Assembly: GCA_018302545.1 (NCBI GenBank)
Contig: JAGVZM010000012.1
Location: forward strand, 1 to 37,688
From: Candidatus Woesearchaeota archaeon
GTDB lineage: Archaea > Nanobdellota > Nanobdellia > SCGC-AAA011-G17 > GW2011-AR18
DNA length: 37,688 nt
Direction of reading: 5' to 3'
The notes under the pieces were generated by a model, which had not been told where the DNA came from, searched no databases, and saw only the letters and a program-made list of their open reading frames with translations. A program made the position numbers and the translations under genes. This document shows, in pieces, positions 586 to 30,155 of the stretch. The stretch's first letter is position 1; every line of letters begins with the position of its first letter.

Positions 586-1692
586 ATGATTATACAGAGA
601 ATTAATTGTAATCTCTTAATATTATTAATGATGAGACAGACAAATAGATTAATGCATTTATTAGTAGATAATTATTTTGGCATAAGAAGTGAAGATAGAA
701 CTAGATGTGAAAGAGAGGTTTCTAATTATTTAGGTAGAGAAGAAAGTGTTGGAAATAATCATGTTGTTTTTGTTAAAAGGATTACTAAAGTTGCTTCAAA
801 CTTAATAAATAGTGGAAATACTAGTTTAGATTTACATCTAGAGAAGTTAAGAGATTTTAATCTTGAAGGGGCAAATATTATAGATAGAGGTATAACCTCT
901 CAATTGAATGGTGTTTCTAAAATGGATTTAGATATTATGAGGTGCCATTTCTATAGTTATGCTGGAGATTGTTCAACTAGACTATTTAAATTAAATGAAA
1001 ATGTTGCTGATGCTCATGATGCATTTATACTATATAGTGGAACTGCAATAGTTGGAGCAGATGTAGATAGAAAACATTCTATAATTAACCTTATGAAAGC
1101 AGCAGATCTAGCTTGGGGTGTTGCTCCAAAATCTGGAGATGAGAGATTAGTTTGGATTAGAAGAGGAATAGATAGTAATTTAGAAGCTGCTGAATTAAGT
1201 AATGGTTTTGATGGATTTTTAAGATCTAGAAATCTTTATTTGGCTAGTCAAAAGGCTACTCAAGTATATACAATTTTACGAGATAAAGGTTCTTTAAATG
1301 AAGCTTATAATCTTAATCTAGAGGCTGCTGGAGCATGTTTAGGATTAGAAAATAATGAACAAGCTTTAAAGGCTTATGAAAGAGCTGCAAGATTAGCTAT
1401 AGATAATTGTGATAATAATGGAAATAGACCATGGTTTAATGAATTTGTTTATTGTAAATATAAACTTGCAGAAATTGAAAGAAATTCTGTAAAGGCAAAT
1501 AGACACTATAAGGAAGTTGGAGATTATGCTAATAATAAATATGAAAGCACTAGAGATGAATTTTGGAAAGGAAAGGCAATAGAAGCTTATAGTAAGTTAT
1601 TAAAAGTTATGGAAGGTGATTCTGGTTTAAGTAGAAGATTTGGTAGACTTACATTACAAACTAGATTAGAAAGATTTCAAAACCTGGCTTAA
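586..1692 (+). CDS. Unknown helical protein with TPR-like repeats
   Basis: This 368-residue protein is almost entirely alpha-helical by composition. The stretch around residues 240-275 (NLEAAGACLGLENNEQALKA, then YERAARLA) has the spacing of a tetratricopeptide repeat, and a similar helix pair follows at NRHYKEVGDYANNKYES. No catalytic motif or signal peptide is visible. TPR-like folds usually bind other proteins. ATG 586 is chosen because an AT-rich TATA-like element (551-561) lies about 30 bases upstream; a later ATG near 631 is the alternative. Its stop interlocks with that of the convergent RNase J gene in the four bases TTAA. The family is not recognised. Confidence 0.7.
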   Translation: MIIQRINCNLLILLMMRQTNRLMHLLVDNYFGIRSEDRTRCEREVSNYLGREESVGNNHVVFVKRITKVASNLINSGNTSLDLHLEKLRDFNLEGANIIDRGITSQLNGVSKMDLDIMRCHFYSYAGDCSTRLFKLNENVADAHDAFILYSGTAIVGADVDRKHSIINLMKAADLAWGVAPKSGDERLVWIRRGIDSNLEAAELSNGFDGFLRSRNLYLASQKATQVYTILRDKGSLNEAYNLNLEAAGACLGLENNEQALKAYERAARLAIDNCDNNGNRPWFNEFVYCKYKLAEIERNSVKANRHYKEVGDYANNKYESTRDEFWKGKAIEAYSKLLKVMEGDSGLSRRFGRLTLQTRLERFQNLA

Positions 1693-3026
1693 AATTTAAT
1701 TCTTTGTCCATCACTCAATAGATGGATATTCTCTTTTAATGTATAACCCATTTCTTCTGCTAATTTAGCTACTGCAGTTTCCATTTCTAAATTCCCTTGA
1801 GATGGAAGAATGTGTTTTGGTTTTAACATTTGGATAAAATCCCTTATATCTTCCCTTGATGCATGACCACTACTATGAACATCCTTAAACATTCTTACTT
1901 TATTTGCTTTTAATATGCTTTCTAATTGTTCTCTATTTGCGATATTCATAGAAACAGGAATTGTTCTACAAGAAAATACAACTATATCTCCTTCATCAAA
2001 ATTAAATGGTAATTGCTTATTTACAATTTTATCTAGAACAGATCCAGGTTCACCTTGAGAGCCAGTTGTTATAACCATATATTTTTCTCTATTTTTGTTT
2101 ATCTCTTTTAATTTTCTTTTTCTTTCAGAGCCATAGCCTATAATTTCAACCCCATTATAAAAATCTGCTAAACCTAAAGATAAAGCACATTCGTTATATT
2201 TTTGCATACTCCTTCCAATAAGAACAACTTTTCTGTTTAGTTTCTTGCCAAATTCTACTGCGCTTTTTATTCTGGCAATATTTGAAGCAAATGTAGTTAC
2301 GAATAATGCTTTTCCTTTTGTATTTGTTTCTAATAAAACCTCTTTTAGCATTTCTCTTGCAACATTTTCACTTGGTGTTTTTCCTTCTACAGTTCCGTTA
2401 ATACATTCTACAACTAAAGCAGTTATTGAATTAGAAGAACCTAATTCCTCTAATCTTTTATAATTTGGTTTAAAACCTAAAACAGGCTCATTGTCTAATT
2501 TGAAGTCATTTGCATAAATAATAACTCCTTTTGGAGAATGGATAGCTACTAAAGCACATTGTAATGTTGAATGAGATACAGATATTAATTCTAATTCTAT
2601 ATCATTTGAGATTTTTATTTTTGTATCTGCATTTAATGGCTTGAATTGGTTTGGAAGCTTTACTTTTTCATCTTTTAATATAGATGTTAAAATACCTAAT
2701 GTGAATGGAGTTCCTATTATAGGGCATCTATACTTTCCTGCTAAGAATTGAACAGCTGCAATATGATCATAATGCCCGTGGCCTAGAACTATTGCTTTTA
2801 CTTTATCTTTCCAATCTTCAATTTTTCTATCATCTGGAATAGCTCCAATATCTATTAATTCGTCTGTAGAAAGAGCTCTTACTCCTCCTTCTTCTCTTTC
2901 GTAAGTTGCTAAAGCTTGGATACTTACACCCATATCTATGATTATTACTTCATCTCCAACCTTAATAGCAGACATATTTCTTCCAACTTCAGAATAACCA
3001 GACACTGCACAAATCTCTATGTCCAT
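1689..3026 (-). CDS. rnj: Archaeal RNase J (metallo-beta-lactamase/beta-CASP nuclease)
   Basis: The 445-residue protein has the architecture of archaeal RNase J, a zinc-dependent 5'-3' exoribonuclease of RNA decay. The metal-binding motif 2 is H83-G-H-Y-D-H88. The N-terminus (SEVGRNMSAIKVGDEVIIID) gives motif 1, VSHST is near motif 3, and ANDFKLD supplies the motif 4 aspartate. The beta-CASP insert spans roughly residues 200-370 and includes LVVECING. The C-terminal HSSGHASREDIRDF and LPSQGN segments are typical of this family. It has no KH domains, which separates it from the archaeal CPSF-type nucleases. A TATA element at 3050-3058 suggests a leaderless transcript. Confidence 0.92.
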   Translation of the reverse strand: MDIEICAVSGYSEVGRNMSAIKVGDEVIIIDMGVSIQALATYEREEGGVRALSTDELIDIGAIPDDRKIEDWKDKVKAIVLGHGHYDHIAAVQFLAGKYRCPIIGTPFTLGILTSILKDEKVKLPNQFKPLNADTKIKISNDIELELISVSHSTLQCALVAIHSPKGVIIYANDFKLDNEPVLGFKPNYKRLEELGSSNSITALVVECINGTVEGKTPSENVAREMLKEVLLETNTKGKALFVTTFASNIARIKSAVEFGKKLNRKVVLIGRSMQKYNECALSLGLADFYNGVEIIGYGSERKRKLKEINKNREKYMVITTGSQGEPGSVLDKIVNKQLPFNFDEGDIVVFSCRTIPVSMNIANREQLESILKANKVRMFKDVHSSGHASREDIRDFIQMLKPKHILPSQGNLEMETAVAKLAEEMGYTLKENIHLLSDGQRIKF

Positions 3027-3049
3027 TTTTTAAGTTTAGAAAAGTTTAT

Positions 3050-3058
3050 GTTTATATA
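3050..3058 (-). promoter_or_regulatory. TATA box for the RNase J gene
   Basis: On the minus strand this reads GTATATAAA and is centred about 27 bases upstream of the ATG at 3026, the distance expected for a leaderless archaeal transcript. No Shine-Dalgarno motif precedes this start. Confidence 0.6.
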
Positions 3059-3106
3059 CTTTAGTATAAGTTTAATTTTGGATAATTCTAGATTAGATTA
3101 ACCATT

Positions 3107-3535
3107 TTATTTTGATCTTTTCTTCTTTTTCTCTTTTAATGCTTCTTCTATCATATTTGCAGATTCTGCAAACCCAAACTCTTTTCCAATCATTAGTATT
3201 TTATAGGCAGATAAGGCAAATAATAAATAACCTATTACCATTAATGAATTTTCAGTTATTATATTGTTAAATAAATTTAAACTTCTTAATAACGTTAATA
3301 ACTTGTTTAAAAATATTGCTAATAAAGCAAATACAAACAATAACGAATAAGATCTTAGTGATGAATTTTGTGCAAGGCTTCTATAAGCTTTAAAACTCCA
3401 GATTAATGCTAAAAATCCAAATGAGATTATAAAAAAGTCTGCTGCTAAATTAAATGTTGGTGTTATCTTAAATAAAGAATATATTCCTATCAATATTGCT
3501 ATAAAAGCTACTATTATCCTGAGTATTTTTTTCAT
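3107..3535 (-). CDS. Four-helix membrane protein, unknown
   Basis: A 142-residue protein made of four hydrophobic segments (about residues 3-20, 28-46, 63-85 and 96-115) followed by a basic cytoplasmic tail ending in EEALKEKKKKRSK. ATG 3535 is preferred over the upstream TTG at 3559 because it overlaps the stop of the preceding gene as ATGA and has a GGAGG motif 7 bases upstream. It is translationally coupled to the RecA-like gene, so the two probably work together. The layout resembles small membrane partners found next to archaeal KaiC-like genes, but no family is recognised. Confidence 0.8.
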   Translation of the reverse strand: MKKILRIIVAFIAILIGIYSLFKITPTFNLAADFFIISFGFLALIWSFKAYRSLAQNSSLRSYSLLFVFALLAIFLNKLLTLLRSLNLFNNIITENSLMVIGYLLFALSAYKILMIGKEFGFAESANMIEEALKEKKKKRSK

Positions 3536-4095
3536 TTTAAATCCTCCACTAAATCGCATACTTGTGTTAATTTGTCTATTAAGTCTTTATTTTTTTCCTT
3601 TTCAAGGCTGATTATTATTCCTTTAACTTTCCATGCCCTCATTTTTGTTGCTAAAAAATGTATAAATCTTGCTACGGTATCACTTTTATTATATATTAAT
3701 AAAGTACTAAGTGAATCAAAAAAAACAAATTTTTCTTTTGTTGGGATTGCTCTTACAGCTTGGTCCATTGCTATACTTATATCACTTAATCTTTCTGGAC
3801 TTCCAATAAATAAACAGTTTTTGTCTTTCTTTACATTACTGCTAGCTAATTTTGTTACACTATCAACAAATATTATTAATCTTGTATCAATTTTATTTTT
3901 TTTGAATGATTCTAACATTGTGGAATAAGGTTTATTTAAAGTAATGTAAACTCCTGGAATTCCTTCTGAAATAAAGTTCTTGATTATTTCTATATTTGTT
4001 TTATTATAAGAAGAAGCAGGCACTGTTGCTAATGCAATGTAGTCTTTTAACTCTTTAAGCTTTTTATGAAACTCTTCTATACCTTTTTTTGTCAT
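3532..4095 (-). CDS. RecA/KaiC-fold protein lacking a P-loop
   Basis: The 187-residue protein has the strand order of a RecA/KaiC ATPase core, but where the Walker A loop should be (about residues 24-32, VPASSYNKT) there is no glycine-rich GxxxxGK motif. A Walker-B-like strand is kept (KFVFFDSLSTLLIY), and so is the late strand GIIISLEKEKNKD. It is probably a non-hydrolysing relative of archaeal KaiC-like proteins, perhaps a sensor or scaffold. It forms an operon with the membrane protein downstream and is divergent from two KaiC-like genes that keep their P-loops. Assignment rests on fold pattern, not on a named motif. Confidence 0.7.
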   Translation of the reverse strand: MTKKGIEEFHKKLKELKDYIALATVPASSYNKTNIEIIKNFISEGIPGVYITLNKPYSTMLESFKKNKIDTRLIIFVDSVTKLASSNVKKDKNCLFIGSPERLSDISIAMDQAVRAIPTKEKFVFFDSLSTLLIYNKSDTVARFIHFLATKMRAWKVKGIIISLEKEKNKDLIDKLTQVCDLVEDLK

Positions 4096-4114
4096 GTATT
4101 TTTAGTCTTTATTA

Positions 4115-4124
4115 CTTATTTAAG
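4115..4124 (-). promoter_or_regulatory. TATA-like element for the P-loop-less RecA-fold gene
   Basis: The minus strand reads CTTAAATAAG, centred about 25 bases upstream of the ATG at 4095. Confidence 0.5.
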
Positions 4125-4147
4125 TTTTTCTGAGTTACTAGTAAGGT

Positions 4148-4157
4148 TTTTATATTT
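4148..4157 (+). promoter_or_regulatory. TATA box for the KaiC-like pair
   Basis: TTTATATTTG is centred about 25 bases before ATG 4177. This supports 4177 rather than an upstream in-frame ATG at 4066, which would add a hydrophobic leader running back across the divergent promoter region. Confidence 0.6.
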
Positions 4158-4176
4158 GACTTATTTTGTTTTAGTA

Positions 4177-4893
4177 ATGAAAAAAACAGAGGGATGCTTA
4201 CAAATAGGTGTATCTGGTTTTGATAAAATATGTAAATGGGGAATTCCCTTATATTCTTCTATTCTTGTGACTGGTGTACCTGGTAGCGGTAAAAGTATAT
4301 TTTGTCTGAACTTTATATTAGAAGGTGCTAAAAACAATGAACCTGGATTAATTATAACAACAGATGAATCTATAAAATCAATGAGAGAATATGCAAAGGA
4401 TTTAGGTTTGTCTTTAGAAGATTATGAAAAAAAAGGATTAATAACTTTAATGGAGCATAATTATTTAGGTCAAAAAATTGGTTCCATACAAGCACCTATG
4501 CAGTTAATTAAAAAAAATAAAATAAAGAGGGTTGTTCTAGATTCATTAAGTATGATAGATTATATCTTTAAATTTGATTCTAAAGATTTTAGAATTGGTT
4601 TGTTACAATTTATATCAGACTTGAAAAAATCTAATATTAACTTTTTAGCAACTTCAGATAGAGAATCAATGTATTTTAAAGAAGATTTTAATTTTAAACC
4701 AGAAGATTTCTTATTTGATAGTCTAATATTCTTATTTAAAATAAGAAAGGGTTCTAGTTTTGAAAGATGTTTACATGTGGCAAAGTTAAGAGGCAAGGAA
4801 CATAGTTTAGACATCTATCCTTTTAAAATAGGCAAAGGCGGAATAAAGGTTTATACAGATCAAATGCCTTTTTCTTTAATTGAAAATGAATAA
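4177..4893 (+). CDS. KaiC-like RecA-superfamily ATPase, copy 1
   Basis: A single-domain KaiC-like ATPase of 238 residues. The Walker A loop is G33-V-P-G-S-G-K-S40, the segment after it (PGLIITTDES) is where KaiC proteins place their catalytic acidic residues, and the Walker B strand is RVVLDSLSM. The late strand with RGKEHSLDIYPFKIGKGGIKV matches the KaiC C-terminal pattern. Family members act as ATP-dependent regulators; the archaellum protein ArlH is a relative. The neighbouring minus-strand pilus operon has no other ArlH-like gene, so a role in pilus control is possible but unproven. The last 8 bases overlap the next gene. Confidence 0.85.
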   Translation: MKKTEGCLQIGVSGFDKICKWGIPLYSSILVTGVPGSGKSIFCLNFILEGAKNNEPGLIITTDESIKSMREYAKDLGLSLEDYEKKGLITLMEHNYLGQKIGSIQAPMQLIKKNKIKRVVLDSLSMIDYIFKFDSKDFRIGLLQFISDLKKSNINFLATSDRESMYFKEDFNFKPEDFLFDSLIFLFKIRKGSSFERCLHVAKLRGKEHSLDIYPFKIGKGGIKVYTDQMPFSLIENE

Positions 4894-5602
4894 AAATACG
4901 AAAAAAGTTAGTAAGAGAGTATCAACAGGAATCTTTAACTTAGATAGTATAATAGGTAAGGGGTTTAAGTTAAATTCTATTAATTTAGTTGCTGGAGGTG
5001 CTGGTTCAGCTAAAACTATATTTGCAATACAATTTCTAATAGAGGGCATAATTAAAAATAAAGAACCTGGAATTTACATTACTTTTGAGGAAAAGAAAGA
5101 AAAGCTATATGATGATATGTTAAGTTTTGGTTGGGACTTAGCAAAACTTGAGAAAGAAGAAAAATTTGTTTTTTTAGAATATACTCCTGAACAAGTTAAG
5201 AAAGTTTTAGTTGAAGGAGGAGGTACAGTAGAATCTCTTATAAATAAAATCAAAGCTAAAAGACTAGTTATAGATAGCATTACTTCTTTTGCATTATTAT
5301 ATTCTGATGAATTAGAAAGAAAAGAAGCTTCTTTAGCTTTAATGGATTTAATAAATACTTGGGAATGTACTGCTTTACTTACTTCACAAGATGAATCAAA
5401 AGATGGAAATACTATATCTGCTGCTCTTGAATTCGAAGTAGATAGTATAATCTTATTATATTATATAAGGATTAAAGGCAATAGAGTTAGAGCAATAGAA
5501 ATCTTAAAGATGAGAGGAACAAAGCATTTAGAAAGAACATTTAGCTTTGAGATAAGCAATAAAGGACTAGTTGTACATCCTAATAAAAAGGTTATATTTT
5601 AA
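4886..5602 (+). CDS. KaiC-like RecA-superfamily ATPase, copy 2
   Basis: Also a 238-residue single-domain KaiC-like ATPase, coupled to copy 1 by an 8-base overlap. ATG 4886 is preferred over TTG 4880. Its phosphate loop is G37-G-A-G-S-A-K-T44, with alanine in place of the usual last glycine, a variant seen in some KaiC homologues. The catalytic glutamate pair is clear (ITFEEKKE), and Walker B is LVIDSITSF. The C-terminal RVRAIEILKMRGTKH is the typical KaiC substrate-side strand. The two copies share fold but little sequence, so they are old paralogues that may form a hetero-oligomer. The stop interlocks with the convergent pilus gene as TTAA. Confidence 0.85.
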   Translation: MNKNTKKVSKRVSTGIFNLDSIIGKGFKLNSINLVAGGAGSAKTIFAIQFLIEGIIKNKEPGIYITFEEKKEKLYDDMLSFGWDLAKLEKEEKFVFLEYTPEQVKKVLVEGGGTVESLINKIKAKRLVIDSITSFALLYSDELERKEASLALMDLINTWECTALLTSQDESKDGNTISAALEFEVDSIILLYYIRIKGNRVRAIEILKMRGTKHLERTFSFEISNKGLVVHPNKKVIF

Positions 5603-6579
5603 TTAATTTTTATTAAACCTGAAGTTAGATTTTTTATTAAAAACCTAATTAAGAAAAATATTCCTATTGATAACAATATAAATATAGGTAATAATTTTAT
5701 TCCTTCCTTTTCCCTGCCTTTACTTATTAAACCAATTACAAAACTGCCAAATACAGAAGTTGTTAATAAGCTAATTAAAGCATAATTAAAAACAAACTTT
5801 GGATCTACACTTATAGATTTTATTGATATTGGAAGAGAAAAACTACTAGCTACATTTGTTGGTATGTTTATATTTTTTAATGTTGAAGATAGCATCTCTA
5901 CTAAAAATGTACCTAATCCCAATAAAAGAGGAGCGCCAAATACTACAGCTATGGAAATAAATATCACATACATATTAACACTAGCACGTACTTTTTTATC
6001 AACTAATTTTTGATTCTTTATTTCCTTTGCAGCTTGCTGAATTAAATCTGCTAATCTTCCTCCTGCTTTTATACCTGAAACAATTAGATTTATAGTCCTG
6101 TTTAGTTCTGTTGATTTTACTCTTTTTGTTATTCTTAATAAGGATTCATCAATGGGTTTTCCTGCAGTTATTTCTTTTCCAACAATATTTAGTTCTTCTT
6201 GTAATGGTCCAAATTCAGGCCTTGCAGAAAGTAATAAAGCGCGGTCTGTAGTAAACCCTGACCTTAAGTTTGCTGCCATTAATTGTAATGCATCTGGTAA
6301 AACCTCTTCAATGTATTTTGCTTTTTTATCTGCATAGACTAATAACCATAGATATATTGCAAAGTAACATAATGTGAACAAGACTATAGATATTATCCAA
6401 AATGCTATATTGTAGAATTTTCCTAGTAAAAATCCTAAAAGTAAAGATAATAATAAATTAAATACAAATATAAAACCTAGAAATTTCTTTGGTTCAAAAT
6501 TTATATTTGAGGCTATTAATAATTCAATTAATTTTTCTCTTATCTTTCTTGGATATAATGAACTAAATAATCTGTACAT
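5599..6579 (-). CDS. TadC-like type II/IV secretion F-domain membrane protein
   Basis: A 326-residue platform protein with one T2SSF domain. Two hydrophobic segments lie near residues 35-75, the cytoplasmic helical domain spans about 85-195 (LPDALQLMAANLRSGF, then VSGIKAGGRLADLIQQAAKE), and membrane segments follow near 200-235, 265-285 and 295-315. Such proteins hold the assembly ATPase at the membrane and build pilin filaments. It is the last gene of the operon and starts 3 bases after the preceding stop. ArlJ/FlaJ has two such domains in one chain; here they are split over two genes, as in Tad-type and archaeal Epd-type pili. Confidence 0.85.
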   Translation of the reverse strand: MYRLFSSLYPRKIREKLIELLIASNINFEPKKFLGFIFVFNLLLSLLLGFLLGKFYNIAFWIISIVLFTLCYFAIYLWLLVYADKKAKYIEEVLPDALQLMAANLRSGFTTDRALLLSARPEFGPLQEELNIVGKEITAGKPIDESLLRITKRVKSTELNRTINLIVSGIKAGGRLADLIQQAAKEIKNQKLVDKKVRASVNMYVIFISIAVVFGAPLLLGLGTFLVEMLSSTLKNINIPTNVASSFSLPISIKSISVDPKFVFNYALISLLTTSVFGSFVIGLISKGREKEGIKLLPIFILLSIGIFFLIRFLIKNLTSGLIKIN

Positions 6580-6582
6580 TTT

Positions 6583-7470
6583 TCAATTTGATAATAAATT
6601 TGGCCTCCTTGTTTTTAACATTCCCAAAAACATAATTTGGAAAAATAGGATTACTACATAAAGTCCATAGAACAATATTTTAACTAAAAATGGTTCTATT
6701 GCCAAAAATGATGAAAGTATTATTAACATTGTCATTGCTAAAGCAGGAAGTATTATTGCTATAATCATATAAAACATTGCTAGTGGGCTTAATTGAGAGC
6801 CATAATTTTCTATTTGAATTATTTGTTCTGTAGATAAATTGTTTATTGTTTCTTGCAATACTATCGAGATATCGCTTCCAGCTTTCATTCCATTTGAGAT
6901 TTGCCATAAAGCTCTTCTATAATATAAAGAAGGATTTTTTGTAGCTGATTCTTCTATAGCTTCTACTGCTGAAGCTCCAGAATTAATCTTTTTTACTATT
7001 TGTTTAAATTCTTCAGATATTTGACCAAAGTTTTGTTTTGAGATTGAAACTATTGTATCAAAAATAGGTATTCCTGAATTAAATTTTATCATTATATTTC
7101 TAAGAGCAGGTAATAAATTTCTATCTATTTCTGCAATCTTTCTAGAGGAAACTAATTTAGGATATATTGTTTGTTGAATAAATACGAATAGAGATAATGC
7201 TAAAGATAATACAAAAGAGATTATTAAGAATTTTTCAATTTTAATTAAAAATAATATTATTGAACTAATAATAAATAGGAATAAGAATGTAATTGAAGAA
7301 GCAACCATACAAACAGCTAGATACTCACGAGTATTTAGATTTGAATCAGTATTTTTTAAATGAGAACCTAAATAAGGAAAAATAGGCGCGATTATAGAAG
7401 AAATTCCCAAAATTTTCTTTGATAGGATATTTAATTTTTTTTCTGGCAATATAGAGAAGGGGATTATCAT
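6583..7470 (-). CDS. TadB-like type II/IV secretion F-domain membrane protein
   Basis: The second single-T2SSF platform protein, 295 residues. Paired hydrophobic segments lie around residues 45-75 and 80-105, a cytoplasmic helical domain around 110-220 (LLPALRNIMIKFNSGIPIFD and WQISNGMKAGSDISIVLQET), and a C-terminal membrane pair around 230-285. The motif of glycine-spaced helices (SNGMKAGSD) matches that in its partner (SGIKAGGRL). The gene is coupled to the ATPase gene upstream by a four-base ATGA overlap and is followed directly by the TadC-like gene. The two proteins probably form a hetero-oligomeric pilus platform. Confidence 0.83.
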   Translation of the reverse strand: MIIPFSILPEKKLNILSKKILGISSIIAPIFPYLGSHLKNTDSNLNTREYLAVCMVASSITFLFLFIISSIILFLIKIEKFLIISFVLSLALSLFVFIQQTIYPKLVSSRKIAEIDRNLLPALRNIMIKFNSGIPIFDTIVSISKQNFGQISEEFKQIVKKINSGASAVEAIEESATKNPSLYYRRALWQISNGMKAGSDISIVLQETINNLSTEQIIQIENYGSQLSPLAMFYMIIAIILPALAMTMLIILSSFLAIEPFLVKILFYGLYVVILFFQIMFLGMLKTRRPNLLSN

Positions 7471-8960
7471 TTTATAATTCCCCTTTTATCTCCTTTCTTA
7501 ACAGATTTTAGTAAATTATCTTTATTTATATAAAATTCTTTCATAATTTTTCCTACTTCTTCTATTTTTCTTATATTGTGTTTAACCATAAAATCTAAAA
7601 TGGTTTTTTTCTCTTGCAAGTCTTTATTGATTTCGTTTTGGTTCATTCCTGTATGCCTATTTAATTCTTCGAAGAATTTTATGCTATCTGAATGTTTAAC
7701 TATTTCATCTGTTGTTGGTTTCCATCTGTATAATATATTTGGTTTTACAACACCCTTTTCTCCTTCAACTAAAAATTCACCTAATTGATAAAGTCTTCTT
7801 ATACCATTACGCCTATCTCTAAACATGACTAGATTTAGATTTACTTCTTCTAATAAATTAGATGGAACAGATATAGGAGGATTTGTTAACCTAGATATTG
7901 TTTCGGAAATACTATTCGCATGCAAAGTGGAGTAAACACTATGACCTGTATGCATTGCCTCAAATAAAACTTCAGCTTCTTTTTGTCTTCTGATCTCTCC
8001 TAAAATAATTCTATCAGGACGCATACGCAGAGAATTGACTAATAAGTCTAGCATTGTTATTTGACCTTTTCCTTCTGGATTAGGTAACCTAGTTACTAAT
8101 GGTGCCCAATAAAGGAATTCTGGTGCTTGAAGTTCTCTTGTATCCTCAATAGAGATTATTCTATTATTTGGAGGCATAAATGGCAAGCATACGTTAAGCA
8201 ATGAAGTTTTACCACTACCAGTTCCTCCACTAATAATTATATTCATTTCATATTGTATAGCTAACCATATCAAAGCAAAAATTTGTGAAGTTACAGTCTT
8301 ATTTTTGATAAAGTCTGTAACTGTCCATGGATCACGGGCAAATTTTCTAATTGTTATAGTATTACCTTTACTTGATATGGGATAGAGAACAGCGTTAGCT
8401 CTATCTCCTGTAATTAAATGGGCATCCAATAAGGGGTCTAATGTGGTTATTTGTCTACCTACTCTTCTTGCTATTATTTCAGAATAGTTAGCTATTTGTT
8501 CTTCTCTTTCTATTATTATACTTGTCATTAACCAACCATATCTTTTGTGATAGACTCTTATTGGTTCTCTTGAAGAGTTTACAACAATTTCTTCTAATGA
8601 ACCATCTAATAATAAATATTCTATTGGGCCTAAACCAACCATATCATTCATTAATTTGCTTATAAGAACATTTTTAGTTGATTCGTCTAAATTTGGAAGA
8701 TGTTTATTTAATATTTCAGATGCAGATCTGACAAATCTAGATTTAATACTCTCTATAGCTTTTGGGTCTAGTATTTCAGATGAGGTCAAGCTAACTTGTG
8801 TAACAATACTTGTTTTTACTGAATCTAATAATGCTAAAGTTGCAACTGAGAATTTTGGCAATGAAACATTATAATAAGTTGCTCTATTATTAACTCCTTC
8901 TATATTTACTATTAATGAAAATCCATAGGACTTTATTGTGTATTGTTCGATTCTTTGCAT
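7467..8960 (-). CDS. TadA/FlaI-type pilus assembly ATPase
   Basis: A 497-residue secretion ATPase that powers pilin polymerisation. The N-terminal domain (about 1-200) ends with the conserved LITGDRANAVLYP. Walker A is G245-G-T-G-S-G-K-T252, the aspartate box is ISIEDTREL, Walker B is RIILGEIR (317-324), and the histidine box HTGHSVYSTLHA begins at 337. The roughly 100-residue C-terminal tail after the core is helical and basic. The start is supported by a GGAG motif 13 bases upstream. It overlaps the preceding gene by 28 bases and the TadB-like gene by ATGA, so ATPase and platform are made together. Confidence 0.93.
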   Translation of the reverse strand: MQRIEQYTIKSYGFSLIVNIEGVNNRATYYNVSLPKFSVATLALLDSVKTSIVTQVSLTSSEILDPKAIESIKSRFVRSASEILNKHLPNLDESTKNVLISKLMNDMVGLGPIEYLLLDGSLEEIVVNSSREPIRVYHKRYGWLMTSIIIEREEQIANYSEIIARRVGRQITTLDPLLDAHLITGDRANAVLYPISSKGNTITIRKFARDPWTVTDFIKNKTVTSQIFALIWLAIQYEMNIIISGGTGSGKTSLLNVCLPFMPPNNRIISIEDTRELQAPEFLYWAPLVTRLPNPEGKGQITMLDLLVNSLRMRPDRIILGEIRRQKEAEVLFEAMHTGHSVYSTLHANSISETISRLTNPPISVPSNLLEEVNLNLVMFRDRRNGIRRLYQLGEFLVEGEKGVVKPNILYRWKPTTDEIVKHSDSIKFFEELNRHTGMNQNEINKDLQEKKTILDFMVKHNIRKIEEVGKIMKEFYINKDNLLKSVKKGDKRGIIK

Positions 8961-9706
8961 TTTATTTCAAGTTCTCCGAATGTAGGATATAAAAATTCTA
9001 TTAGCTCATGTTCTTCTAATATTTTAGCCCATTCCTCTGCTTTTTCTTTTGAAATTTTGAATACTTCAGTTATTTCCGAGAGTTTAACTTTTTCAAATTT
9101 TTTTACTAATTTATAGAGTTTATCTATCTCTGTTTCATATTTTGCATTACTTAGTCTCACGTAAGTCTTCATTTTAGAAATTTTACTAATATTCTTTGTT
9201 TTTTTATCTAATTTTTTAGGTTTGACATTTATTAGATTTAATATTATAGATATAAATGCAATAAATAATGCAAAGTAAAGGATTTTTTTATCTGATATTA
9301 CCATAGATACAATTAGTAATGATATAGCTATCAAAGCGTTTGCTGTTTTTGAGATATTTATTTTATTTGTGTTTTCTTTTTTTATCTTTTTTTTGATATT
9401 TTTTCTTTCATGCTTTGATTTTAGTGAACTAATTAATATTGAGAATAGCATAATTATAATGCCTATAACGAACATCCAGATTTTAAATGGTTTTACTATT
9501 GCAGCAACAGATATTATGGAACCTATGCAATAAGTTATTTTATATAGGTCTTTTGATAAAAATCTATTTTTAGATGGGTTAGATAATATTATTATAAGCA
9601 ATATTAATATTCCTAATAAAAAAAATAGTGATTTTATATAAACTAGTATAAGAGTATCTAATAAAGCTATACCTATTAGAAGATTTGATACCCCCTCTTT
9701 TATCAT
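8933..9706 (-). CDS. Membrane protein with probable C-terminal winged-helix domain
   Basis: This 257-residue protein starts with about four hydrophobic segments (residues 8-42, 58-92), has a lysine-rich loop, then two more membrane segments (about 118-160). The C-terminal 80 residues are soluble. YETEIDKLYKLVKKFEKVKL followed by SEITEVFKISKEKAEEWAKI and EFLYPTFGELEI has the helix-turn-helix-wing rhythm of a winged-helix domain, and the YPTFGE end recurs in archaeal proteins next to pilus ATPases, as far as I can recall. It begins the platform operon and overlaps the ATPase gene. It may dock the ATPase or sense assembly state; that is inference. Confidence 0.75.
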   Translation of the reverse strand: MIKEGVSNLLIGIALLDTLILVYIKSLFFLLGILILLIIILSNPSKNRFLSKDLYKITYCIGSIISVAAIVKPFKIWMFVIGIIIMLFSILISSLKSKHERKNIKKKIKKENTNKINISKTANALIAISLLIVSMVISDKKILYFALFIAFISIILNLINVKPKKLDKKTKNISKISKMKTYVRLSNAKYETEIDKLYKLVKKFEKVKLSEITEVFKISKEKAEEWAKILEEHELIEFLYPTFGELEIKCKESNNTQ

Positions 9707-9759: not shown

Positions 9760-10584
9760 TTACAATATTTTTGGCTTAGTACTCTTTGTTATATTAAATT
9801 CTGGAAATGAGATATTAATTGGATTTTCTAAAAAAACTTTTATTTTATCAGTTGTATCTATTGTTAGAGTAATATTAACCATAAAAGTACCATTTCTTAA
9901 GTCTCTTATTTCAAATAGATTTGGTGATTCTTCATTTATTTCTATATCAATATCATCTAAACTGAAACGGTCAAATTCTGCGTGAATTTCCTGGTTTATA
10001 TTTACATTTTTAGTATCTGTCAAAGTATGGGTAGAATTTCTAAATATTAAGTTTATTGGAACATTACCAGAAGTGAAATCATCCCATTCTATCTCTTCTA
10101 ATAAAATATTTTCACTAAATACATCTATAGTTATATTTTTAATATTTGTGAAATTAGTTACATACCTTCTTTCAGAGCTACTAGAACCTGCATTAGTATC
10201 CTTATAATAGAGCATATTATTTATGTTTAATATTTTAGCATCTAAATTTGTATTATTTATTTTTACATTTTTTTCTCTTGATTCTACAAACTCTTTTAGG
10301 TTGTTAAATGAAGCTGTATAATTTGTTGAATTGGGATGAGGAATAATCTCTTGTATTGATATGGTGTTATTTACTAAAGTTACATTTAAAGCACCATCTA
10401 AAATAAATATATCCACAATACTTTTGCTTATTGAACTTGAGAGATCATTAACCCTATTACTTATACTTAATTCTGTTGTTCTTGTTTGTGTAGATTGTGA
10501 AATATTAAATACTAATAATGCCATTGCTATTAATAACATGCCTAATAAAAAAAAGTTTAATGTGTATATCACTCCTTTTGCCAT
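9760..10584 (-). CDS. Minor pilin-like secreted protein
   Basis: A 274-residue protein with a short basic start (MAKG) and one long hydrophobic segment (VIYTLNFFLLGMLLIAMALL) followed by an Asn/Thr/Ser-rich extracellular part with many N-x-S/T sites. The layout matches a type IV prepilin cut after glycine 4, although the usual glutamine and glutamate-5 are missing. ATG 10584 is preferred to TTG 10590 because GAGGTG lies 11 bases upstream. It is the last of five pilin-like genes in the operon and overlaps the preceding gene by 16 bases. The exported region has beta-strand character and no family I recognise. Confidence 0.72.
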   Translation of the reverse strand: MAKGVIYTLNFFLLGMLLIAMALLVFNISQSTQTRTTELSISNRVNDLSSSISKSIVDIFILDGALNVTLVNNTISIQEIIPHPNSTNYTASFNNLKEFVESREKNVKINNTNLDAKILNINNMLYYKDTNAGSSSSERRYVTNFTNIKNITIDVFSENILLEEIEWDDFTSGNVPINLIFRNSTHTLTDTKNVNINQEIHAEFDRFSLDDIDIEINEESPNLFEIRDLRNGTFMVNITLTIDTTDKIKVFLENPINISFPEFNITKSTKPKIL

Positions 10585-10988
10585 ATCCAATAATTCACCT
10601 CTGCATAATCTTCATTTGTAATAAAATATTTTTTACCAGAAATTGTAAGTATTCCATTAGAAGGTATGCCTCCAACATCTATTGTTTTATTATTTTTAGT
10701 TTGAATTAAAATCCTCATTTCATATGCTTTTGGTAATACTAAATTTTTTTCATTTTCAATAGTTGAAGAGTCTAATGTTTGTAAAACTCCTTTATTGTCC
10801 ATTAGAGATATTATATCACTGCCTATATTTGCCATTTGGATTTGGGGAATCTTATTTTCTGATGCTTGAGATACATAATAAACTGATAAAACTAAGGCGA
10901 TTGAGAATACTATAACCGCTACTATTATATCTAAAGTAAATATTAACCCTCTATTTCCATAACGATACTTCAATAGTTGATGTTTCAT
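10569..10988 (-). CDS. Small minor pilin-like protein
   Basis: A 139-residue protein beginning MKHQLLKYRYGNRG followed by the hydrophobic helix LIFTLDIIVAVIVFSIALVL, consistent with a prepilin cut after G14. An aspartate stands near the place of glutamate-5. The extracellular part is about 100 residues with short strands. ATG 10988 is chosen because AGGAGG lies 16 bases before it; the TTG at 11003 would sit directly on that motif. It overlaps its neighbours on both sides, by 38 and 16 bases. Its small size suggests a minor pilin that primes or caps the filament. Confidence 0.72.
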   Translation of the reverse strand: MKHQLLKYRYGNRGLIFTLDIIVAVIVFSIALVLSVYYVSQASENKIPQIQMANIGSDIISLMDNKGVLQTLDSSTIENEKNLVLPKAYEMRILIQTKNNKTIDVGGIPSNGILTISGKKYFITNEDYAEVNYWIWQKE

Positions 10989-12069
10989 TTTGATAATATA
11001 CAATCCTCCTTAATTTAGTTGTTGCCCCATTTGGATAATTTCCTAATTCTAATATTGACTGATTGCCTTTTAATAAAACTAAATATAATTCATAATCTTG
11101 TACTTTGGATATATTCTTTATTTGCTCGTAAGGTAATTTTGATAATGCACTTAATTTTTTTTCATTTATTATTTTATCTTTATCAACTAAACCTAAAGCA
11201 TTTATATCTGGTGAGATAGCAAATGAGGTTCTTGTTATATTTGAAATTCTTAATTCATCTAATCTACCTGGAAAAAAATTTTGATTTAAATCTTGTTTGC
11301 CTAAATATAAATTATTGCTGCTATCTTGTGGAGTTCCAGCTGCTATAGTTGAAAATATTTCTAAACCGTTTACATAGAACTTAATAGTGTTTGTTGGGTT
11401 GAATCCAGAGATATAATGGTTATTTGTCAATGCTACATGATACCATTTATTTAAATTGAAGTTATAATTTGGTGTAAATTGCCCAATTCCATTTATTAGA
11501 AAACTAGGTTTCATCCCATTAACAATTTTTATATAAAATTGTCCAGATTTGTGTATTAAGTGCTCCTCTAAAGAACTTTGATCTTTTGTTGGATAAAACC
11601 AGAATTCGATAGTAAAATTTTTTAGATTTGATAATGAAGAACTATGATTAATTTCAATAAAATCATTTGAACCATCAAAGTTTAAACAGTTATTAACCTT
11701 ACATTGATCTGAATTAAGTATATTTGGGGCATCATTTGGTGGATTTGGTTTTAAATTACCATCATTGTTATTATTTGAATTATCTATTACTTGATTATTA
11801 TCTATAGAATCAAAGTAAATTAATAAGTTTGTTGAACCATCTGGATTGTATTTTTGCAGCTGATTTTCTTCCCAATTATCTGGAATTCCTGGACTTGATA
11901 TTAACTGGTTAGCAAATTGAATATTATACAATTCCATTTCTGTTCTAAAGATTGAATCTGATAGATTTGATTGGTATGAATTCCAAATAACAAAGAAGGT
12001 TGTTATTAGTATTATAAATATTATAATTGATAACAACAAGTCAGTCATGCTAATTTGTGCTCTAACCAT
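10951..12069 (-). CDS. Minor pilin carrying a LamG/concanavalin-like domain
   Basis: A 372-residue prepilin. The class III signal is MVRA followed by QISMTD and a hydrophobic helix to about residue 30. A laminin-G-like (concanavalin-fold) domain spans roughly residues 80-285: it opens with LIYFDSIDN, passes through LNFDGSNDFIEINHSSSLS, FTIEFWFYPT and WYHVALTNNHY, and closes with FYVNGLEIF and GRLDELRISNITRT. This is the pattern of LamG_3 domains, which often bind sugars. About 85 residues follow the domain. The protein overlaps both neighbours slightly, so it belongs to the pilin operon. It is probably an adhesive minor pilin; the sugar-binding role is inferred from fold. Confidence 0.82.
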   Translation of the reverse strand: MVRAQISMTDLLLSIIIFIILITTFFVIWNSYQSNLSDSIFRTEMELYNIQFANQLISSPGIPDNWEENQLQKYNPDGSTNLLIYFDSIDNNQVIDNSNNNNDGNLKPNPPNDAPNILNSDQCKVNNCLNFDGSNDFIEINHSSSLSNLKNFTIEFWFYPTKDQSSLEEHLIHKSGQFYIKIVNGMKPSFLINGIGQFTPNYNFNLNKWYHVALTNNHYISGFNPTNTIKFYVNGLEIFSTIAAGTPQDSSNNLYLGKQDLNQNFFPGRLDELRISNITRTSFAISPDINALGLVDKDKIINEKKLSALSKLPYEQIKNISKVQDYELYLVLLKGNQSILELGNYPNGATTKLRRIVYYQNETSTIEVSLWK

Positions 12070-12433
12070 TTTGAATTATTATATTATTATTTATATTTGC
12101 AATATTAATTTCTCCTGTGTAAGTTCCTGAAGTAACATCTCCTCTATAATTGCATACTACATCAGTTCCATCACTAGATCTTATTGATATTGTTCCGGAT
12201 AATAGAGTTATATTATTTACTGAGTTTATTTTAATATTATAACCTGGCCCTAAAGTTAACGCAGACTCTATTGCATTAGATATTTTAAAACATTCATCTC
12301 TTAATTTTAATGATTTATCTAATTCTTTTAGGTTATTACTTTCTCTTAGATAGAATATTAAAAAAAATATAAAAATCAAGAGAACAAAAGAGACACCTAT
12401 TATTATTTCTAAGCTTATTTGCCCTTTATTCAT
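12062..12433 (-). CDS. Small type IV pilin-like protein
   Basis: A 123-residue protein with a textbook class III prepilin start, MNKG then QISLEIIIG, with glutamate at +5 and a hydrophobic helix to about residue 29. A helical spine continues to about residue 60, followed by a short beta-rich head (ITLLSGTISIRSSDGTD). Cleavage by a PibD/EppA-type peptidase would occur after G4; that peptidase gene is not in this window. Overlaps of 8 bases on each side tie it to its neighbours. It may be the operon's structural minor pilin. Confidence 0.82.
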   Translation of the reverse strand: MNKGQISLEIIIGVSFVLLIFIFFLIFYLRESNNLKELDKSLKLRDECFKISNAIESALTLGPGYNIKINSVNNITLLSGTISIRSSDGTDVVCNYRGDVTSGTYTGEINIANINNNIIIQNG

Positions 12434-13973
12434 TTACTACTCCAATGTCTGCTTCTGTTATTTGGGCAGTGTCTCCGTTCATAGTTGTTCTTGGAGCAAT
12501 TCTAATTTTAATATAGGTACTATTTCCAGCTAAAACTGTATCTGTAATATTTACTTCATTAAATCCTCTATCAACTCCAGTTATGATTACATTAGTTATT
12601 GAGAAATCTGTTGTATTTGTTAGAATTATATTTTGGTCATCAGATGAATAAGCATACACCCTTAAATCATAAGGTAAGGTTTGTGCACTTTTAGCTTTTA
12701 ATCTTAAACTATAATGTTCATATTCGCTTTTATTCCTATTTAATTGTAAAATAAAACCTTCATATCTTTGTCCATTAGAAGTATAATAAAACTTAGATGA
12801 ACTTGGAGGAGTATTTTTATCCTCGTCACTAAGCTCTATTGTATTTAAAGTTAAAGTTGATTGGTCGTCTCTTGCAGTAATTCCAACTCCATTTGGAGTT
12901 TTGAAGTTCCATGCAATATCTGGAACTTTATATTCATAATCATTACCTGGACCTGGGGCTATTGGAGAAACAACAATAGTTATATTTGGGTATGGGTTTT
13001 CATAACCTAAGTTATTAGCAGTATCATTTGCATAAATAGTATTAATTGTCCAGTTACCTGCTGCTTGAAGTTGTATACTTATACCATAAACATTATCATT
13101 AGATGTACCTGCACAAGAAGCAGTATCTGACATTACATAATTTACTTCACTTGGAAATGGAGAGTTTAATGGGGTAGTTAATTTAGCCCATATAGTGTGT
13201 ATAGTTCCTGCATCTGAAACTGTAGCATTTATACAAATATATTCATTTACACTTAAATTTGTTTTATCGACTTGAGTATTGCTTACTGAAGGTGCTGTTG
13301 TATCTAGTACAACACTAAAACTAATTACTGATGAAGAACTCATAACATTTTGGAAACGATCTATACACCTTACATAATAAGTATAATTTCCATTAGATAA
13401 ACCAGTTAATTTGCTATTATGGCTTAAACCAGTACCATTCATCTGATCTAACATAGAATTATAGTCTCTATCTATGGAATCATATTTACATGCAGAGGGC
13501 TCATCAGTAGTTACTTCTAAAGTTGGATTATTTATTGTGACTATTCCTTTAGGTTGTGTATCTATAATTTGGGGTAATGTAGTATCATTTACTGGGCCAA
13601 TAACAACAACATCATTTAACATTTCTATAGAAATCCTATGAATTCCTTGATTTATTGGAATAGAACCAGATATATTTATGTTAGTAAAAGATGAGACATC
13701 CCCTGTGCCAGGCATACTTAGGCTTATAGTTCCATTGTCAACTAATGAAGTATTGACTCCTGATGGTATTGAAATCCAAATAAAATCCCTTGATCCTGAG
13801 CCTAGTGCGTAAATTGATTCGGATTTTCTTGCAATTGAGTTAACTGTGCTTGAAGCCTGATTAATTCTAGTTGTTCTATTAGATTCACTCAATGCATAAT
13901 AGAATAGAGGTATAATGGCAATTAAGATTATTGAAATTAAAATTAGGTATTCGGTCGCAGCTTGTGCCTTCAT
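12426..13973 (-). CDS. Large pilin-like adhesin with Ig-like repeats
   Basis: A 515-residue surface protein with a class III prepilin start (MKA then QAATEYLI, hydrophobic helix to about residue 27). The exported part contains two Ig/fibronectin-like modules. The first, about 150-220, has TLEVTTDEPSACKY and NGNYTYYVRCIDRFQN. The second, about 230-335, has DTTAPSVSNTQVDKTNLSV and WTINTIYANDTANNLG. Both follow the pattern of modules common on archaeal surface proteins. The remaining 170 residues are beta-rich. Many N-x-S/T sites suggest heavy N-glycosylation. It is the first gene of the pilin operon and divergent from the major-pilin gene. Confidence 0.8.
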   Translation of the reverse strand: MKAQAATEYLILISIILIAIIPLFYYALSESNRTTRINQASSTVNSIARKSESIYALGSGSRDFIWISIPSGVNTSLVDNGTISLSMPGTGDVSSFTNINISGSIPINQGIHRISIEMLNDVVVIGPVNDTTLPQIIDTQPKGIVTINNPTLEVTTDEPSACKYDSIDRDYNSMLDQMNGTGLSHNSKLTGLSNGNYTYYVRCIDRFQNVMSSSSVISFSVVLDTTAPSVSNTQVDKTNLSVNEYICINATVSDAGTIHTIWAKLTTPLNSPFPSEVNYVMSDTASCAGTSNDNVYGISIQLQAAGNWTINTIYANDTANNLGYENPYPNITIVVSPIAPGPGNDYEYKVPDIAWNFKTPNGVGITARDDQSTLTLNTIELSDEDKNTPPSSSKFYYTSNGQRYEGFILQLNRNKSEYEHYSLRLKAKSAQTLPYDLRVYAYSSDDQNIILTNTTDFSITNVIITGVDRGFNEVNITDTVLAGNSTYIKIRIAPRTTMNGDTAQITEADIGVVNE

Positions 13974-14042: not shown

Positions 14043-14087
14043 TTCATTTAATGTCTTTAAATTATTAAAATTTATGAGGTGATCGCA

Positions 14088-14561
14088 TTGAAGAAAGGTC
14101 AAGCAGCAATGGAATTTCTAATGACCTATGGTTGGGCGATATTAGTCGTGCTTATTGCCATAGGAGCTTTAGTATATTTTGGAGTTATAAGTCCTGAGAG
14201 GTTTGTTCAAGATAATTGTACATTAACTCCTCCGTTGAGTTGCTCTGAATTAGGTGACTTTGCAGCTTTTAGAGCTGATACGAATAATGTAAGAGTAAGG
14301 GTTAACAATGGTGCTGGTGCAACAGTTAACTTACAAAGTGTAACACTAACAGAGACTGATGGAAATACATGTACAAGATTGGATAATGCAACATCAGTTA
14401 ACTCAGGAGCAGAATTAGAAGTAAGATTTACTTGTAATGATGTAACTGCTGCTAGTGCTGTTGGAACAAGATTCACTGGAGACTTAGATATTATCTATAG
14501 TTTAACAGGCGGATCATACAACCAAACTAGCAATGGAAAAGTAGTTGTTAGGGTACAATAA
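14088..14561 (+). CDS. Major type IV pilin with class III signal peptide
   Basis: A 157-residue pilin. The start is MKKG followed by QAAMEFLMTYGWA and a hydrophobic helix to about residue 34, with glutamate-5 present; cleavage is expected after G4. The head domain is beta-rich with two cysteine pairs (near NCTLTPPLSCS, and at NTC and FTC) that could form disulfides. TTG 14088 is chosen over GTG 14079 because GAGGTGATC (14077-14085) is a strong ribosome-binding site ending 2 bases before it, while the GTG lies inside that motif. It is transcribed away from the minor-pilin operon, with its own promoter and terminator, as expected for the most abundant subunit. Confidence 0.9.
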   Translation: MKKGQAAMEFLMTYGWAILVVLIAIGALVYFGVISPERFVQDNCTLTPPLSCSELGDFAAFRADTNNVRVRVNNGAGATVNLQSVTLTETDGNTCTRLDNATSVNSGAELEVRFTCNDVTAASAVGTRFTGDLDIIYSLTGGSYNQTSNGKVVVRVQ

Positions 14562-15905: not shown

Positions 15906-16580
15906 ATGGTAGAAAGGTTTTTGAATAATCCTAGATTGATTTATTTTATGATTAATTTTATTGGAAGATCTAGAGAATATAATGATCATCTTGAAGGAGA
16001 AGTTCCTAAAGATTTAGAAAGACTGGTCCATAGACTTAGGTGGCCAATTTATTTAGAGAGTACTCCAAATATCCACTTGGCTTGTTATTTTGGAGAGAAA
16101 AATTATGCAAATCCGAGAGCGCAGTTTCCTTATGATATGCCTCATCCTGGATTGGATATTCAAGCAAATCAAGGAACACCAATATTATTACCTACTACTG
16201 GAAGAATTGTTAAATGTAAAGTTGATAAGATAGGAGGCCTTACTGTTGGAGTTTATGATGAAGAGAATAATCTTGCTTATGTATTTGCACATTTAGATGC
16301 AAGACAACCTCCCTGCGAACTTATTGAAGATACACATACAAAATGGAATTCGCCTTATTTTTTAGAAGCAGGTAAACCTATAGGCAAAATAGGAAAATGG
16401 AATTATGAGCTTCCAGATTTTGTGAATATTCCTGGAGAAGTTTTAGCAATTTATGGAAGAGAATTTCATCATGTGCATTTTGAGATTATGTATATAAACC
16501 CTAGGCAAAAAAAACCTCGTTTTATTGAAGGAGTAGATACACTAAATCCTTTGCTTTTATTACAAAAACTAAAGTATTAA
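15906..16580 (+). CDS. M23-like (LytM) zinc metallopeptidase domain protein
   Basis: A 224-residue protein with the full set of M23 zinc and catalytic residues: H80-P-G-L-D84, H129 in FAHLDA, and H189-V-H191. The strand LPTTGRIVKCKVDKIGGLTV is the typical LytM core. Bacterial members cut peptidoglycan, which archaea lack, and this one has no signal peptide or membrane segment, so an intracellular or other substrate is likely. GGTGGTGA directly before the ATG may aid initiation. Its stop lies inside the 39-base repeat that flanks vapBC, so before that insertion it would have overlapped the GTPase gene by 12 bases. Confidence 0.85.
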   Translation: MVERFLNNPRLIYFMINFIGRSREYNDHLEGEVPKDLERLVHRLRWPIYLESTPNIHLACYFGEKNYANPRAQFPYDMPHPGLDIQANQGTPILLPTTGRIVKCKVDKIGGLTVGVYDEENNLAYVFAHLDARQPPCELIEDTHTKWNSPYFLEAGKPIGKIGKWNYELPDFVNIPGEVLAIYGREFHHVHFEIMYINPRQKKPRFIEGVDTLNPLLLLQKLKY

Positions 16581-22891: not shown

Positions 22892-23848
22892 ATGATAAAT
22901 ATAAGATATTTAATGCTATTTATATTTTTTTTATCTTTAATTTCTACCCTTATTTTAACAAAATTGTTTATTTATAGAGCCATAAAAAGAAATTTAGTTG
23001 TTAAAGATATGTATAAGAAAGGTAATCAGCTTATTCCTCATATAGGAGGGTTAGCAATTTTAGGTGGAATAATTGTGAGTATGATTATCCTACAATTTGT
23101 TGGTATTAATATGATTCCATTATTACTATTTTATTTTGTTATAATTTTATATGCTATATATGGATTAGCAGATGATATCTTAAGTTTTAACAATAGAATA
23201 ATTAAAGTATTAGTCTTATTCTTTTTTGCATTACCTATATCAATATTAACTTCTGATACTAATTTAGATTTGATATTTTTTAATTTGGAATTAGGTTTAT
23301 TTTATGCATTTATTTTTGCACCTTTCTACATCATGGTTGTATCGCATTTGATAAATTTTCATGAAGGATTTAATGGTTTAGCTTTAGGAACAACACTTAT
23401 TATGTTTATATTTGCTATTATTAAGTCATATCTATTAAATGGATTTACTTTTATTATTTTAGCAATGCCTATTTTGGGTGCATTATCAGCCTTTCTTTAT
23501 TTCAATTTCTATCCTGCAAAAATACTACCAGGAAATATTGGAACTTTTTTAGCTGGCAGCTCTTTAGGTGCTTTCTTAGTTATAGCCAATATGGAATTAT
23601 TTGGTTTTATAATTTTAATACCTCATGTAATTAACTTCTTATTATGGCCAATATGGGTAATAAAAATGGATAAGTATCCTTATCAAAAATTTGGCAAATT
23701 AAGAAAAGATGGTACAATTGAAACTCCAAATTATTTTACATTAAAGTATGCTGTATGTAAAATTTTTAGGGTTAAAGAAGGGCAAGCGACATTAATATGT
23801 TATGGTTTAACTTTATTCTTTTGTATAATAGGATTATCATTCTTTTAA
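22892..23848 (+). CDS. GT4-type polyprenyl-phosphate sugar-1-phosphate transferase (WecA/AglH-like)
   Basis: A 318-residue integral membrane enzyme of the MraY/WecA/Alg7 family. About ten hydrophobic segments are visible. Family signatures are the HIGGLAILGGI loop, the catalytic aspartate pair in YGLADDILSFNNR, the FHEGFNGLALGTT loop, and LPGNIGTFLAGSSLG. Such enzymes move a sugar-1-phosphate (usually GlcNAc-1-P) from UDP to a polyprenyl phosphate at the cytoplasmic face, the first step of N-glycan or surface-polysaccharide synthesis. It opens the glycan cluster. Its 3' end overlaps the convergent aminotransferase gene by 12 bases. Confidence 0.88.
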   Translation: MINIRYLMLFIFFLSLISTLILTKLFIYRAIKRNLVVKDMYKKGNQLIPHIGGLAILGGIIVSMIILQFVGINMIPLLLFYFVIILYAIYGLADDILSFNNRIIKVLVLFFFALPISILTSDTNLDLIFFNLELGLFYAFIFAPFYIMVVSHLINFHEGFNGLALGTTLIMFIFAIIKSYLLNGFTFIILAMPILGALSAFLYFNFYPAKILPGNIGTFLAGSSLGAFLVIANMELFGFIILIPHVINFLLWPIWVIKMDKYPYQKFGKLRKDGTIETPNYFTLKYAVCKIFRVKEGQATLICYGLTLFFCIIGLSFF

Positions 23849-24949: not shown

Positions 24950-24957
24950 TCATCACC

Positions 24958-26013: not shown

Positions 26014-26035
26014 TAAGATTTTTTACAAAGGTTTT

Positions 26036-26044
26036 ACTTATATG
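26036..26044 (-). promoter_or_regulatory. TATA box of the dehydrogenase-aminotransferase operon
   Basis: The minus strand reads CATATAAGT, centred about 27 bases before the ATG at 26013. Confidence 0.5.
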
Positions 26045-26114
26045 TTTTTATATTTATTAGTGTATATTTCATAAGATTCTGATAATTTGTACATTTTACC
26101 CAATTCTAAGTAAA

Positions 26115-26124
26115 ATTTAAATAG
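26115..26124 (+). promoter_or_regulatory. TATA box of the first WbpG-like gene
   Basis: ATTTAAATAG is centred 26 bases before ATG 26145, a clear leaderless arrangement. Confidence 0.6.
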
Positions 26125-26144
26125 TTTACATTAATCGGTTTTTC

Positions 26145-27281: not shown

Positions 27282-27349
27282 GACCAATCATCTATATTTA
27301 ATAAATAGTATTCTGGATCTATAATTTATGGTTTTTACTTTAGAAACTT

Positions 27350-27359
27350 ATTTAAATTA
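27350..27359 (+). promoter_or_regulatory. TATA box of the DUF354 gene
   Basis: ATTTAAATTA is centred about 24 bases before ATG 27378. Confidence 0.5.
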
Positions 27360-27377
27360 TTGATTTTTTTGTAGAAG

Positions 27378-28412: not shown

Positions 28413-28413
28413 T

Positions 28414-30098: not shown

Positions 30099-30155
30099 TT
30101 ATCTTAATAAGAAAAAGATAGATATATATATATATATCCAATTTTTTAAAAGATT

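Follow-up and report, generated by a model that had tools for sequence, protein, structure and literature searches.

Pilins that carry a glycan-binding module are known from bacteria. PilC from Streptococcus sanguinis is a modular minor pilin with a ConA-like lectin module that binds glycans (PMC9934059). A survey of bacterial modular pilins recorded over 1200 proteins in 264 architectures, with PF13385 among the extra domains; it used the bacterial N-terminal signature IPR012902, and archaea are absent from its text (PMC8179133). In archaea, passages in papers on Undinarchaeota (PMC7414124) and nanohaloarchaea (PMC10266531, PMC9563170) propose that surface proteins with LamG domains participate in host attachment. 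The words LamG and concanavalin do not occur in a 2016 census of archaeal pili (PMC4858521), and our search of the open-access literature turned up no archaeal pilin described as carrying LamG.

We analyzed a 37,688-nucleotide stretch of DNA from a Candidatus Woesearchaeota archaeon (contig JAGVZM010000012.1), referred to here as the window. The source genome belongs to the broad group DPANN/Nanobdellati and measures 1.16 Mb at 95.6% completeness, which fits the small archaeon assumed in an initial reading of the sequence alone; dependence on a host is probable. The minus strand of window 10951-12069 holds a 372-residue open reading frame with an ATG start, a stop codon and no internal stops. 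The encoded protein begins with MVRA followed by QISMTDLLLSIIIFIILITTFFVIW (full start, MVRAQISMTDLLLSIIIFIILITTFFVIW). This is the arrangement of a class III prepilin, in which a short charged leader, here ending in R-A, precedes about 21 mostly hydrophobic residues. Prepilin peptidase is predicted to cleave between A4 and Q5, placing the leader at 12058..12069 (-), and each of the 17 family members in the alignment (16 orthologues and the window protein) has Q5. An assembly ATPase (PF00437) and two PF00482 proteins are encoded alongside, and a prepilin peptidase is encoded elsewhere in the genome (PF01478 at G000:C8, E 3.7e-15), as expected for a type IV prepilin. The sequence-only reading had called this frame a minor pilin with a class III signal, and the exact frame, the leader, the hydrophobic stretch and the surrounding pilus operon all bear this out.

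The protein consists of two pilin halves separated by an inserted segment. The orthologue alignment, a core profile and AF2 modelling delimit an N-terminal half (residues 1-69; 11863..12069, -) that comprises the leader, a long stalk helix and a conserved P-x-x-W-E just before the hinge. The core profile and AF2 place the C-terminal half at residues 288-372 (10954..11208, -), where two helices are followed by a four-stranded sheet. We modelled the pilin part from a wide orthologue alignment without LamG rows, which therefore left the LamG part unmodelled. The pilin part was predicted with a pLDDT of about 90-98 and contains a helix at residues 2-58, a short hinge helix and head strands at residues 327-371. 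A long N-terminal helix joined to a beta-sheet head is the fold of a type IV (class III) prepilin. A Foldseek search with the full model returned nothing at E<=0.001; its best matches were poorly scoring ribosomal proteins, and it is not informative on the pilin head.

The inserted segment (residues 70-287; 11209..11862, -) is absent from orthologues and was defined by Pfam, AF2 and Foldseek. It contains the sole Pfam domain of the protein, Laminin_G_3 (PF13385, residues 132-282, E 6.3e-24), which scores 85.3 bits against a curated cut-off of 27.6 bits, a match well outside what chance would give. The domain really begins near residue 76-80, because alignments with homologues start at about residue 73-80 and the model has its first strand in this region. 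The domain proper thus spans about residues 80-284 (11218-11832, -), in agreement with the roughly 200 residues first proposed; the complete inserted domain amounts to about 215 residues. A comparison with 54 other LamG domains from the order gave 37 conserved columns, and in 27 of them the window LamG has the consensus residue. The residues kept include W157, W209, G235, G257, G268, D271, E272 and the motif D96-x-S98...N102-x-G104. When residues 70-292 were folded with 54 LamG homologue rows, AF2 predicted an all-beta, ConA-like jelly-roll (pLDDT 92.6, pTM 0.90). Foldseek gave this model 184 matches in the PDB at E<=0.001, and the matches listed are all proteins with ConA-like jelly-roll domains. 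A jelly-roll had been put forward as the fold by which the LamG assignment would stand or fall, and no alternative fold emerged.

Domain 4 of the arabinanase AbnA, a carbohydrate-binding module, is among the best Foldseek matches (TM 0.66/0.71), and a trans-sialidase was also matched. By profile search, AbnA is again one of the best solved relatives, together with 4qvs, a LamG from an S-layer domain-containing protein. The top structural neighbours also include clostridial neurotoxin binding domains, but these share only the ConA-like fold at 14-18% identity, which does not imply a relationship to toxins. LamG-type domains include protein binders, and sugar binding is not universal among them. 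The window LamG has no close relative; the closest LamG by score belongs to a Sec-secreted single-LamG protein in genome G156 (35% identity). That alignment reached residue 322, apparently entering the pilin part, but the G156 protein lacks the pilin core, and we rejected it as a second LamG-inserted pilin. The window LamG fell in no well-supported set of the LamG tree that would indicate a donor. The TafC family fimbrial protein model (NF052521) was likewise rejected, as it scored 25.5 bits against a cut-off of 410 and covered the LamG part only; we found no paper on TafC as a pilin in the open-access literature.

We compared the window protein to its orthologues and found that the LamG is an in-frame internal insertion (residues ~70-287) rather than a fusion at one end. 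The earlier description of a pilin fused to LamG was right that one protein holds both parts, but the domain is set inside the pilin and not appended to it. The remainder is an ordinary minor pilin of about 156 residues, and residues 1-70 and 288-372 jointly form a complete conserved pilin. A whole-protein search of 60 relatives identified many genomes that match query residues 1-71 and 286-372 in one short frame with LamG missing. The orthologue profile aligns to the window protein as two blocks, one at residues 2-70 (E 2.8e-24) and the other at residues 288-372 (E 7.6e-21), with the break between profile positions 85 and 87. Invariant positions of the 17-row alignment include Q5, L56, G61, P63 and W66 on the N-terminal side of the LamG and G293, K305, G343 and R355 on its C-terminal side. 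The nearest relatives, G003 and G001, are Candidatus Woesearchaeota MAGs of the same family as the source genome and encode the same pilin without LamG. The G003 orthologue has 156 residues, and its identities to the two flanks of the LamG are 50% and 43%.

Across the order we surveyed 99 genomes, of which 39 besides the source genome have an orthologue that matches the profile over most of its length. None of these orthologues is split by a LamG-sized insertion, leaving one genome with the LamG-inserted form among the orthologues sampled. Absence from all orthologues had been named at the outset as grounds for giving up the proposal, and taken literally that is the outcome. It is a poor refuter, because an insertion that is confined to one lineage yet intact, in frame and well conserved represents a gain in evolution. 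G+C content (0.267, compared with 0.276 in the window) and codon usage are native-like. As judged from these comparisons, a lineage-specific gain of LamG is the simplest history.

The pilin gene lies in a conserved operon that encodes an ATPase, two TadC-like platform proteins and six prepilin-like proteins. Upstream on the minus strand are a 123-residue prepilin-like protein (GQISLEIII; 12062..12433) and a large one of 515 residues (KAQAATEYL; 12426..13973) that is conserved in G003 (54% identity) and G001. Downstream on the same strand are prepilin-like proteins of 144 residues (NRGLIFTLD; 10569..11003) and 276 residues (AKGVIYTLN; 9760..10590), a 257-residue membrane protein (8933..9706), a T2SSE family pilus assembly ATPase of the TadA/FlaI-like type (7467..8960; PF00437 E 1.6e-37, NCBIfam) and two TadC-like T2SSF platform proteins (6583..7470 and 5599..6579; PF00482). 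A 160-residue PilA-like pilin with a GTG start (GQAAMEFLMTYGWA; 14079..14561, +) is the candidate major pilin. The other prepilin-like proteins and the membrane protein were assigned from the open reading frame list and the operon comparison. G003 and G001 both preserve the entire operon in collinear order; in G003 the genes run TadC-like, TadC-like, ATPase, membrane protein, 276-residue, 144-residue, orthologous pilin, 123-residue, 515-residue and 160-residue pilins. The operon ATPase scored 138.6 bits against the bindosome (BasE-type) model, which has a cut-off of 1000, and the archaellum FlaI model scored higher; we rejected membership in the bindosome (Bas) system because the ATPase falls so far under the cut-off.

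Several other genes in the window deserve mention. KaiC-family ATPases (two clear, one partial) adjoin the operon at 4066-5602 (+) and 3532-4095 (-), and KaiC genes beside archaeal pilus loci are noted in passages of earlier work (PMC4858521; PMC9563170). A cluster of the surface-sugar type at 22892-35910 includes a glycosyltransferase of family 4, a sugar oxidoreductase, a QueC-like protein, a DUF354 protein, an ATP-grasp protein, an NAD epimerase and a DegT aminotransferase. An M23-type peptidase domain is encoded at 15906-16580 (+), which is unexpected in a murein-free archaeon.

We examined whether the same pilin carries other modules by a class-wide profile search, in which at least 189 of 376 genomes gave a match and larger frames were translated; all graft counts are lower bounds. 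At the hinge used by LamG (site A), G358 has a Cys-rich insert of about 160 residues, with the break at profile position 84|86 (locus L077, 3703-4716 +). A second site, before the last beta-hairpin (site B), holds inserts of about 200-350 residues in at least eight genomes (L067, L068, L069, L070, L072, L073, L074 and L075). These inserts are similar to one another where compared and gave zero Pfam hits; a weak resemblance to a beta-galactosidase domain (E 0.05) gives a hint at most. The evidence for site B comes mainly from the alignment, because the C-terminal pilin piece behind the inserts is short and scores weakly by itself. At the C-terminus (site C), G183 carries a vWA domain (PF13519), and G075 and G362 carry further modules. 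The G183 pilin (L069, 3732-6110 +) combines a site-B insert with its C-terminal vWA and in the latter recalls PilB of S. sanguinis. Modules also recur across sites and genes. The C-terminal Cys-rich module of the G171 pilin is homologous to the G358 hinge graft (E 2e-10). In G001, where the orthologous pilin is LamG-free, the neighbouring minor pilin has 516 residues, compared with 123 in the window (L084, 1841-3388 +), and its module resembles the site-B inserts (E about 1e-8). Grafts seen across the class thus indicate that modules vary between lineages and sit at different sites.

These observations tentatively suggest a broader model, which we regard as possible but well short of probable. 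The chassis of about 156 residues might serve DPANN pili as a general platform for docking, with fixed graft sites at the hinge after P-x-x-W, in the loop before the last beta-hairpin and at the C-terminus. It might exchange recognition modules that choose the partner cell (LamG, vWA, Cys-rich and an unnamed domain of about 220 residues), with swaps both among lineages and among adjacent pilins within an operon.

LamG domains are common in the order, occurring in 67 of 99 genomes. Among the shorter frames examined, LamG lies C-terminal to prepilins of other types in nine further genomes. These are PilA-like pilins of the GQxALEFLMTYGWA type in G045, G096, G017, G034, G097, G080 and G081 and ISPL-type prepilins in G054 and G047. 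TIGR02537 confirms the prepilin start of L014 only; the other starts were assigned by inspection. PilA-like pilins with a C-terminal LamG, some in adjacent genes, occur in genus g16 of family f9 (L006, L110, L112, L120, L130, L136 and L141), and L135 (G054, 1234-3321 -) encodes an ISPL-type prepilin in which LamG is followed by a weak calcineurin-like phosphoesterase match. The only other LamG of the source genome is a divergent 273-residue protein with an N-terminal membrane segment (L002; G000:C15, 1045-1863 +).

We are confident about the anatomy of the protein and moderately so about its function. It is probably a modular adhesive minor pilin that works like PilC of S. sanguinis, with a LamG head whose putative ligand is a glycan or glycoprotein of another cell or of a surface. 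The protein binders among LamG-type domains, the absence of the LamG from every orthologue sampled and its lack of a close relative weigh against this reading. MVRA would be removed by the genome's own prepilin peptidase, cutting between A4 and Q5. Through the unchanged pilin part, the long helix could then pack in a pilus assembled by the TadA/TadC-type machine. The bulky LamG head would face outward, with the pilus tip or its vicinity as the most likely place; both the size of the insert and the parallel with PilABC of S. sanguinis (PMC9934059) suggest this. In bacteria, the subunit that caps the tip complex has no Glu5 (PMC10191384). Mature position 6 is D in the LamG pilin and the 144-residue pilin and N in the 276-residue pilin, while the 123-, 515- and 160-residue pilins have E5; D or N in place of E5 may be a further, weak hint of a tip position. 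By binding its ligand there, the displayed LamG would make the pilus a grappling filament, and for this archaeal group a role in holding on to a host cell is plausible.

Alternatively, the domain might be structural or self-directed, capping or stiffening the tip or docking the pilus on the S-layer or glycans of the same cell, with no part as an adhesin for foreign cells. The S-layer origin of 4qvs, its best solved profile relative, and the surface-sugar cluster in the window fit such a role. However, the 39 orthologues without LamG presumably assemble, which makes the domain dispensable for the pilus, and the varied modules on this pilin, including vWA, look like recognition parts; we consider the structural role unlikely. 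Capture of food, in which the pilin grips polysaccharide or debris instead of a cell, would resemble the Sulfolobus bindosome, where sugar-binding proteins carry class III signals. The AbnA module, which binds plant arabinan, is among the best structural matches, and the ATPase does match the bindosome ATPase model, though far below its cut-off and with less score than FlaI attains. We identified no ABC transporter among the window genes scanned, and the PilA-like candidate major pilin and the other prepilins are typical of a pilus, so that food capture appears less likely still.

It is also conceivable, but very improbable, that the gene is an assembly chimera or a dead end in which the insertion ruined the pilin. 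Its occurrence in a single genome is what such an accident would produce. Against this, both junctions are in frame and free of stops, the base composition and codon usage resemble those of the neighbours, and the LamG hallmarks and the invariant residues of both pilin halves are retained. A mis-join driven by repeats is unlikely because the genome's only other LamG is divergent. An adhesive minor pilin with a removable head remains the reading we prefer.

The LamG pilin bears on how host-dependent DPANN archaea recognize and hold particular partner cells. This question is directly testable, because the lectin-type module is removable and a natural module-free orthologue exists whose flanks are 43-50% identical. 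With its module inside the pilin, the protein carries the concept of modular pilins over from bacteria to archaea, and the grafts in related genomes point to fixed sites common to unrelated modules.

We compared the LamG pilin to the systems it most resembles. Like PilC, it is encoded with other minor pilins and is proposed to be displayed at the tip; the module of PilC binds glycans (PMC9934059). The two differ in that PilC has a bacterial pilin part with a distorted head and carries its modules (Ig-like, then lectin) at the C-terminus, not between stalk and head. Homology to PilC was not detected: the whole protein matched zero PDB chains at E<=1, and zero streptococcal pilins were among 51 profile hits of the LamG alignment. 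The protein agrees with Pelicic's definition of a modular pilin, a pilin bearing a functional domain that is not specific to pili. In that layout, however, an N-terminal pilin is followed by a linker-joined module, whereas the LamG here sits inside the pilin, between residues 70 and 288. GspK of the type II secretion system likewise has an extra domain inserted in its pilin head (PMC8179133), but it belongs to a bacterial secretion system. The LamG surface proteins of DPANN archaea share the domain family and the broad archaeal group of the window pilin; they differ in being described as secreted or membrane surface proteins, and the passages that describe them report no pilin fusion. Thus, bacterial modular pilins, some of them with PF13385, are known, and what this locus adds to the open-access literature is a LamG domain inside an archaeal pilin.
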